A stretch of DNA of 64,000 nt from Woeseiaceae bacterium. Its GTDB lineage: Bacteria; Pseudomonadota; Gammaproteobacteria; Steroidobacterales; Woeseiaceae. Each line of letters starts with the position of its first letter. The first letter of the stretch is position 1. The position numbers and the translations under genes were made by a program. The stretch lies in contig JASJCM010000003.1 in the NCBI GenBank assembly GCA_030065985.1, positions 1 to 64,000 on the forward strand, given 5' to 3'. This document shows, one piece after another, positions 20,183 to 22,393 of this stretch. The notes beneath the pieces were generated by a model. That model had not been told where the DNA came from, did not search any database, and was given only the letters and a program-made list of their open reading frames with translations.

Positions 20183-20779
20183 TCAGTCGACCGGCGCGCT
20201 TTTCAGCGAATTCAGCGTACTGTCGACAATGCCCTCCAGGGTCTCCCTGGGGAATCCGGTGCGTCCGAGAACCACGAGACCGAACATCGAGCTGGTCAAC
20301 AACTCACCGGCCTTATCCACGTCAACGTCCTTGTGGATCTCTCCCCGGCCCTTCGCCGAGTCGAGCCCGATCGCAAAGGCCTTCGAAATGCGCTTCATGA
20401 AACGCTGCAGTACGCCGCGCAGTTCCTCGTCCTGCGGCGCCAGCTCCATGGCGGTGTGGATGAACAAGCAGCCCCTGTTCGCCTCAGAACAACAGATATC
20501 CGCGACACGATCGTCGAAGATCTTGCGGATATGGTCGAGTGAGGCCCCGGGCTCCAGCAAGCGCAGGAAGGACTGCTTGCCCATGCCTTCTGCGTAGCGC
20601 TCGAGCGCCTGCTCGAACAGCTCGCGTTTGTTGCCGAACGTGCCGTACAGGCCGTAGCGACTAACGCCCGTCGTCTGCACGATATCCTCCATCGAGGTCT
20701 CGGAGTACCCCTTGGACGCAAACAAATCAACGACTTGCGACAGCGTCGTGGATGGATCGAATGTTCTTGCTCGGGTCAT
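20183..20779 (-). CDS. TetR-family transcriptional regulator
   Basis: QVVDLFASKGYSETSMEDIVQTTGVSRYGLYGTFGNKRELFEQAL. Confidence 0.92.
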   Translation of the reverse strand: MTRARTFDPSTTLSQVVDLFASKGYSETSMEDIVQTTGVSRYGLYGTFGNKRELFEQALERYAEGMGKQSFLRLLEPGASLDHIRKIFDDRVADICCSEANRGCLFIHTAMELAPQDEELRGVLQRFMKRISKAFAIGLDSAKGRGEIHKDVDVDKAGELLTSSMFGLVVLGRTGFPRETLEGIVDSTLNSLKSAPVD

Positions 20780-21142: not shown

Positions 21143-22393
21143 ATGCTGACTGCTTTGAGAATCACCCTGCTCGCGGCCGTTGTCGCGCTCTTCAGTCCGG
21201 TCGTAGTCGCGGATGACTGCGTCGATTGTCATCGCGTGGAAACCCGAAACATTGTGACTGACTGGCAGATCAGCAGACATCACACAGAAGATGTCGGGTG
21301 TCGCGATTGTCACAAGGGTCGGCACAAGTCTGCTGAGGATGTCGGCAAGCTCAAAACCGTGACGGCAGAAACCTGCGCGAAGTGCCATGAGGAACGTTTC
21401 GAGCAATTCGCGAAGGGCAAACACGCGCTCGCATGGGCCGCCGTTGAGGCAATGCCAACTACGCATGCCCTGCCCATGGCCTTGTCGCATGGTATGAAGG
21501 GGTGCGGAGGCTGCCACAAGCTCGGGCTCAAGGACGAACAGGCTGTCGAGCAACTCAAGGAAGAAGGCAGCATGTTTGGCCACGCGTCATGCGACGCTTG
21601 TCATACACGCCACACTTTCTCGGTCGTCGAGGCTCAACAACCGCAGGCCTGCCAAACCTGCCACATGGGGTTCGACCACCCGCAATGGGAGATGTGGTCC
21701 TCATCCAAGCATGGAGTTCGTTACCTGTTGGCCCAAAGCGGTGTCCTACCGGACGACACGTCAGCCCCATCCTGCCAGGACTGTCATATGGTTGATGGCG
21801 ATCATGAAGTGCGGACCGCCTGGGGGTTCCTCGCCGTTCGCCTGCCTTTACCCGAAGACGAGCAGTGGGCCGCGGATCAGGTCACCATTCTCCAGGCCCT
21901 CGGTGTCCTCGATCCGGAGGGTAACCCGACCGCTCGGCTCGACGTCGTCAAGGCTGCCGATGTCGCGCGTCTGACCCAGGAGGATTTCGATCGCGAGCGC
22001 AACAAGATGATCGCCGTATGCGGCGACTGTCACTCGGACAATTTTGCAAGGGCCGAGCTGGCCAAGGCGGACGACATGATCCGCGAAGCCGACCACCTGC
22101 TTGCCGAGGCAATACGCGTCATCGCCGGGCTATACGCGGACGGCATTCTCGAGAAGCCGGAGGGATACGCCTATGCGTTCCCCGACCTGCTTTATTTCCA
22201 CGATGCGCCCACGTCCATCGAAACGCGGCTCTTCGAGATGCATCTCAAGCATCGCATGCGCGCGTTCCAGGGAGCGTTTCACGCGAACCCGGATTACGCG
22301 CTTTGGTACGGGTGGAGCGAGATGGTCCGCGACCTGCAGGACATTCGTGAAAAGGCCGAGGAATTGCGCTCTCGCGCTACGGCCGGGCATTAG
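21143..22393 (+). CDS. Octaheme c-type cytochrome, hydroxylamine oxidoreductase-like family
   Basis: Signal peptide plus eight CXXCH motifs (CVDCH, CRDCH, CAKCH, CGGCH, CDACH, CQTCH, CQDCH, CGDCH); HPQWEMWSSSKHGVRY and GAFHANPDYALWYGWSEMVRDL. Confidence 0.85.
   Translation: MLTALRITLLAAVVALFSPVVVADDCVDCHRVETRNIVTDWQISRHHTEDVGCRDCHKGRHKSAEDVGKLKTVTAETCAKCHEERFEQFAKGKHALAWAAVEAMPTTHALPMALSHGMKGCGGCHKLGLKDEQAVEQLKEEGSMFGHASCDACHTRHTFSVVEAQQPQACQTCHMGFDHPQWEMWSSSKHGVRYLLAQSGVLPDDTSAPSCQDCHMVDGDHEVRTAWGFLAVRLPLPEDEQWAADQVTILQALGVLDPEGNPTARLDVVKAADVARLTQEDFDRERNKMIAVCGDCHSDNFARAELAKADDMIREADHLLAEAIRVIAGLYADGILEKPEGYAYAFPDLLYFHDAPTSIETRLFEMHLKHRMRAFQGAFHANPDYALWYGWSEMVRDLQDIREKAEELRSRATAGH

Follow-up and report, generated by a model that had tools for sequence, protein, structure and literature searches.

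An eight-heme protein of the hydroxylamine oxidoreductase family in a Woeseiaceae bacterium and the clade to which it belongs

Judged from its sequence and predicted fold, the gene investigated here encodes a real eight-heme protein of the hydroxylamine oxidoreductase (HAO) family. It belongs to a clade of this superfamily (hereafter the family) that keeps the catalytic Asp-His pair of oxidative HAOs without their cross-linking tyrosine, and for which we found no name or model in Pfam, NCBIfam or the literature consulted. The superfamily itself and reductive HAOs are already known. Considering sequence, model and relatives together, we regard it as probable that the protein is a soluble periplasmic octaheme reductase of NO, hydroxylamine and/or nitrite, which may serve nitrosative-stress defense or low-oxygen scavenging.

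The octaheme gene and its surroundings

The gene begins with an ATG and lies within the window, the 64,000-nucleotide stretch of contig JASJCM010000003.1 that was analyzed (Table 1). A first-pass annotation had described an orphan HAO-like cytochrome with exactly eight CXXCH motifs, a signal peptide and two family-like motifs in only 416 aa. All eight heme motifs are present, and in 2000 shuffled versions of the protein CXXCH occurred 0.035 times on average and at most twice. The N-terminus reads by eye as a cleavable-looking Sec-type signal peptide with a probable cleavage site between PVVVA and DD and no lipobox in residues 1-23, and both quoted motifs were found, DHPQWEMWSSSKHGVRY from residue 178 and FQGAFHANPDYALWYGWSEMVRDL from residue 375. 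The length was likewise given correctly, but it is the normal length for the subfamily and no sign of truncation. The GC content of the gene equals that of the window (60.1% each). Contamination or recent acquisition was rejected on composition, as GC and GC3 resemble those of the neighbors, and on the shared synteny with metH. Since the octaheme locus with metH recurs in related Woeseiaceae genomes, it is no assembly artefact.

Table 1 Features of the octaheme gene and its divergent neighbor, in window positions.
Feature	Position	Strand	Basis or remark
Octaheme HAO-superfamily cytochrome gene	21143..22393	+	416 aa; Pfam, PDB profile, Foldseek
Sec signal peptide, residues 1-23 (putative)	21143..21211	+	by-eye reading
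Heme 1, CVDCH (residues 26-30)	21218..21232	+	sequence, alignment
Heme 2, CRDCH (residues 53-57)	21299..21313	+	sequence, alignment
Heme 3, CAKCH (residues 78-82)	21374..21388	+	sequence, alignment
Heme 4, CGGCH (residues 121-125), counterpart of the HAO catalytic (P460) heme	21503..21517	+	order and HAO alignment
Heme 5, CDACH (residues 150-154)	21590..21604	+	sequence, alignment
Heme 6, CQTCH (residues 170-174)	21650..21664	+	sequence, alignment
Asp178-His179, counterpart of the HAO catalytic Asp-His pair	21674..21679	+	alignment
Heme 7, CQDCH (residues 211-215)	21773..21787	+	sequence, alignment
Family-specific conserved segment between hemes 7 and 8 (residues 221-276)	21803..21970	+	spacing, invariant residues
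Heme 8, CGDCH (residues 293-297)	22019..22033	+	sequence, alignment
His380	22280..22282	+	common to oxidative HAO and HAOr; Met in epsilon-Hao-like clade
Leu387-Trp388 at the cross-linking Tyr site of oxidative HAO (no Tyr)	22301..22306	+	alignment
TetR/AcrR-type regulator, divergent	20183..20779	-	PF00440; accompanies the gene in several Woeseiaceae only

Upstream of the gene are a 111-aa ORF and the TetR regulator; farther upstream in the window lie ORFs that we take to be prmC-like, peptidylprolyl isomerase-like, moeB-like and endonuclease/exonuclease-like. Downstream follow a PACE efflux gene (NF033664; 22414-22860, minus strand) and metH, an ORF of 1237 aa whose product looks like a cobalamin-dependent methionine synthase. 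In most Woeseiaceae copies the octaheme gene sits between the TetR gene and metH. Other Woeseiaceae loci lack the PACE gene between octaheme gene and metH, which rules it out as a partner; being confined to the window locus, it is probably a recent local insertion. As the first-pass annotation had stated, no nitrogen or cytochrome gene is among the neighbors in the window. "Orphan" in fact describes nearly the whole family: a conserved operon partner was sought and not found, the largest neighbor cluster covering 7 of 85 loci, and multiheme neighbors of family genes are sporadic across loci.

Fold and clade

Pfam, PDB profile matches, Foldseek and the tree all agree with the earlier assignment to the HAO superfamily. 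PF13447 matches the protein with 96.7 bits (cut-off 21.9; best stretch residues 50-216) and likewise 55 of 55 family members. When a profile of these 55 relatives was compared with the PDB, eight sequences were found, all of them HAO, HDH, HAOr or IhOCC, with the reductive HAOr 6h5l at the top (149 bits; 129 for Nitrosomonas HAO). An AlphaFold2 model built from the alignment of the same relatives reached a mean pLDDT of 79.6 and a pTM of 0.75, and is weak at hemes 4-6 with a pLDDT of about 50-60. With this model Foldseek gave 11 matches at E<0.001 (8e-11 to 1e-7), again all HAO, HDH, HAOr or IhOCC and again headed by 6h5l. ONR, NrfA and OTR are multiheme periplasmic reductases, as we read the window protein to be, but their fold does not match it significantly. 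NrfA gave E-values of 0.23 or more and ONR (8rv0) one of 2.5, and OTR is absent among the Foldseek matches listed; we therefore rejected all three as its family.

A scan of one genome per species yielded at least 507 confirmed relatives, not all of them necessarily in the clade. The 80 highest-ranking ones are 64-86% identical to the window protein; among their hosts are Woeseiaceae, Shewanella, Ferrimonas, Calditrichota, Zixibacteria, KSB1, Acidobacteria, Aminicenantes, Planctomycetota, Deltaproteobacteria and Beggiatoa-like bacteria. A family hidden Markov model separates members (at least 450 bits) from the next best HAO-like protein (235 bits) and from most others (100-180 bits). Heme spacing is near-constant in the family at 27-25-43-29-20-41-82 residues, whereas oxidative HAOs have about 66-26-56-10-20-51-49. 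The difference between hemes 7 and 8, 82 residues against 49-50 in oxidative HAO, coincides with segment 221-276, in which many residues are invariant within the family.

In a tree of 92 octaheme proteins the family forms a single branch (SH-aLRT 100, stem length 1.11), as obtained by a quick search with SH-aLRT support only and with some long branches outside the family. This branch stands apart from the oxidative HAOs, themselves a clade with support of 100, and from HAOr, a gammaproteobacterial group and a large epsilon-Hao-like group, which was recognized by its Met motif in a tree without Campylobacterota sequences. The closest known system is Kuenenia stuttgartiensis HAOr (Kustc0458, 6h5l). 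Fold, eight hemes and Asp-His pair are common to it and the window protein, as are a histidine at position 380 and a tryptophan instead of tyrosine at the cross-link site. It differs in heme spacing, branch and sequence (~24% identity over the Foldseek alignment), and it acts with a partner, Kustc0457, whereas the window gene stands alone. The family thus unites HAOr-like marks with a heme spacing and a conserved segment of its own.

Active site and direction of catalysis

Asp178-His179 is found in every one of 55 family members and aligns with the Asp-His pair present in all seven oxidative HAOs and in HAOr. The eight conserved free histidines of oxidative HAOs are matched in the family by His46, 61, 94, 157, 179, 190, 221 and 380, the one after heme 2 by position rather than by alignment column. 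Seven of these are predicted to be the expected distal heme ligands. With seven distal ligands assigned and the eighth histidine, His179, placed as the catalytic residue by Asp178, one heme would be left open, and this would be heme 4. His108 and His370, also invariant in the family, are candidate extra ligands.

The first-pass annotation had advised checking for the cross-linking tyrosine of oxidative HAOs, and in the alignment it is absent. Where oxidative HAO reads GGFTYTEGW the family reads DYALWYGW, so that the tyrosine site corresponds to Leu387 or Trp388 of the window protein depending on gap placement. None of the 29 family members examined has tyrosine there, while all seven AOB-type HAOs do; Trp388 is kept in 29/29. 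Loss of this tyrosine has been tied to reductive catalysis (PMC8940962, PMC12758564), and in epsilon-Hao its site is occupied by tryptophan with a methionine eight residues earlier (PMC8940962). At the latter position all 29 family members carry a histidine, His380, whereas 41 of 42 members of the large epsilon-Hao-like clade carry methionine. We regard tyrosine loss as a suggestive sign of catalytic direction.

With oxidative HAO (1fgj, 4fas) and anammox HOX/HDH the window protein shares the superfamily, the Asp-His pair, the seven-His ligand set and, for oxidative HAO, His380; it is shorter than these enzymes by roughly 100-200 residues and spaces its hemes differently. The shared features could suggest that it oxidizes hydroxylamine (or hydrazine), like the dehydrogenases of nitrifiers or anammox bacteria. 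Yet its family is a separate clade and no nitrogen-oxidation gene adjoins the gene, which together with the complete lack of the tyrosine among the members examined makes such a function very improbable. Of the small-molecule redox role that had been suggested from the sequence, the missing tyrosine therefore favors the reductive option and makes hydroxylamine oxidation unlikely.

Seven bis-His hemes would accordingly transfer electrons to a five-coordinate catalytic heme 4 beside Asp178-His179, which would lack a tyrosine cross-link. Electrons may enter from periplasmic cytochromes or from quinol-linked tetraheme proteins encoded elsewhere, and would be used to reduce NO, hydroxylamine and/or nitrite. 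Its likeliest role would be to protect the cell against nitrosative stress or to scavenge nitrogen oxides at low oxygen.

Regulation in relatives and redox context

The 300 bp upstream of family genes were scanned for FNR- and CRP-type palindromes chosen beforehand. TTGA[TC]N4[AG]TCAA precedes 11 of 75 family genes, compared with 6 of the 626 remaining genes at these loci (Fisher p = 7.6e-8), and all eleven matches begin with TTGAC. Upstream of family genes (22.8 kb) there are five copies of the strict form TTGACN4GTCAA and six of the mixed form, TTGACN4ATCAA or its reverse; 1.08 Mb of sequence outside these stretches contain three of each. Four of the carriers are Zixibacteria, and Calditrichota, Deltaproteobacteria, Nitrospirae and a gammaproteobacterium are also represented. 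Since the carriers are partly related, as the four Zixibacteria are, the eleven genes are not fully independent. Canonical FNR (TTGATnnnnATCAA), Desulfovibrio HcpR/CRP (TGTGAN6TCACA) and NsrR motifs were not found upstream of family genes. The reading as HcpR sites was made after the matches had been seen: TTGACnnnnGTCAA is the HcpR consensus of delta-proteobacteria, where Rodionov et al. (2005) described the motif wyTTGACnnnnGTCAArw in front of hcp and of frdX paralogs; in two cyanobacteria its core also precedes hcp and norB (PMC1274295). The theme extends beyond the family, as 8 of 67 other octaheme genes also have FNR- or HcpR-type sites.

A three-Cys Rrf2 regulator (PF02082) directly adjoins the family gene in six further loci (L029, L041, L042, L082, L044 and L085), which span several phyla and do not overlap with the eleven palindrome loci. 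The Rrf2 superfamily includes NsrR, but these proteins cannot be called NsrR, as every equivalog model scored them below its cut-off. The gap to the octaheme gene is 15-19 bp in three of the six. With eight Rrf2 genes in 1.07 Mb of loci, the chance of six lying so close is about 1e-6, or 1.4e-5 when two sister species are counted once. At the window locus and at the other Woeseiaceae, Shewanella and Ferrimonas copies we found no HcpR-type site and no Rrf2 gene, and the upstream regions of these copies also contain no clear palindrome as a conserved operator. The regulatory argument hence reaches the window gene via orthology only.

The regulation in relatives points to nitrogen-oxide stress, and it bears on whether the protein has any catalysis of its own. 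An electron-transfer or metal-reduction cytochrome, for example a periplasmic shuttle to an MtrC-like cluster, would agree with His108 and His370 as candidate extra ligands and with the MtrC/DmsE/MtrB-like genes on another contig of the window genome. The octaheme gene is, however, unlinked to these Mtr genes, and retention of Asp178-His179 and of near-constant heme spacing across phyla is unexpected for a pure shuttle. Taken with the regulation in relatives, we find a shuttle rather improbable.

A respiratory reductase of nitrite (or nitrate-derived nitrite) resembling epsilon-Hao, which would ammonify for energy and not for detoxification, deserves more weight, though we still consider it unlikely. 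Epsilon-Hao of Campylobacterota and Caldithrix is of the same superfamily, lacks the cross-linking tyrosine as the window protein does, keeps the counterparts of Trp388 and Asp178-His179 and has a proposed reductive function, in Caldithrix as nitrite reductase (PMC5317091). The Shewanella and Ferrimonas carriers moreover encode NapA and several NrfA-family proteins. On the other hand, epsilon-Hao has methionine where the family has histidine, and its linkage to nap or a dedicated quinol-oxidizing cytochrome has no counterpart in the family loci compared, where neither a nap gene nor a shared quinol-oxidizing partner was found beside the gene. In one KSB1 genome it is a long epsilon-Hao-like paralog that adjoins napA; the family copy is found on a different contig. 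Finally, two carriers of the Woeseiaceae that are 98-99% complete, G021 and G029, were tested for NrfA, NapA, Hcp and NirK and gave no match above the thresholds used; G021 encodes a NapC/NrfH-type gene.

For the reductase of NO, hydroxylamine and/or nitrite that we favor, electron donors would have to be encoded away from the gene. The first-pass annotation had seen no redox partner adjacent and proposed a genome-wide search: none adjoins the gene, as it said, but NrfHA, an MtrC/DmsE-like cluster and CcmH are encoded elsewhere in the window genome. This genome (84% complete) gave no above-threshold match to NapA, Hcp or NirK. Its nrfA and nrfH pair lies on contig C77 (L094, 5276-7263, minus strand), and among ten genus members checked only the window genome and G005 have NrfA. 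A PF13447 protein is present in 4 of 37 genomes of the genus, and with these four carriers only, no association with Hcp, NapA, NrfA or NirK was seen. Contig C74 (L095, 1-8000) encodes an MtrC/OmcA-like decaheme cytochrome, a DmsE-like cytochrome, an MtrB-like porin and a cytochrome b561-multiheme fusion, which suggests extracellular electron transfer in this bacterium.

For the clade as a whole we tentatively propose, with less confidence than for the reductase reading of the window protein, that it is an unrecognized nitrosative-stress enzyme, a stand-alone periplasmic reductase under HcpR or Rrf2/NsrR-like regulators in many phyla. If so, it would take on in the periplasm the task that Hcp and NorB have elsewhere, and would occur in marine-sediment bacteria in which the other known reductases of nitrite and hydroxylamine are missing. 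Metagenome surveys, which probably already contain the clade under the name hao, count such genes as hao, and this can make them look like evidence of nitrification or anammox. With its own spacing, no cross-linking tyrosine and an HcpR/Rrf2 link in relatives, the clade would be miscounted in this way. In sediments, of which Woeseiaceae are abundant members, it may act as a sink for NO, hydroxylamine or nitrite. The regulatory link offers a direct, testable function for this unnamed and widespread protein family.

Other multiheme genes were observed along the compared loci. In two of them (L057 and L063, about 5.0-7.8 kb) the family gene is immediately preceded by genes for a Rieske protein, a cytochrome b and a nine-heme cytochrome, which in that lineage may carry electrons from quinol to the octaheme protein. 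In two others (L082, 5935-7290; L059, 5271-6596), at most 1.4 kb separates the family gene from a second, long HAO-like octaheme gene of 25-27% identity. In a separate gammaproteobacterial HAO-like clade (L168-L175), Pro-Pro-His replaces the usual X-Asp-His, so that the catalytic Asp is lost, and a five-CXXCH gene, apparently a dedicated partner, adjoins in most loci.
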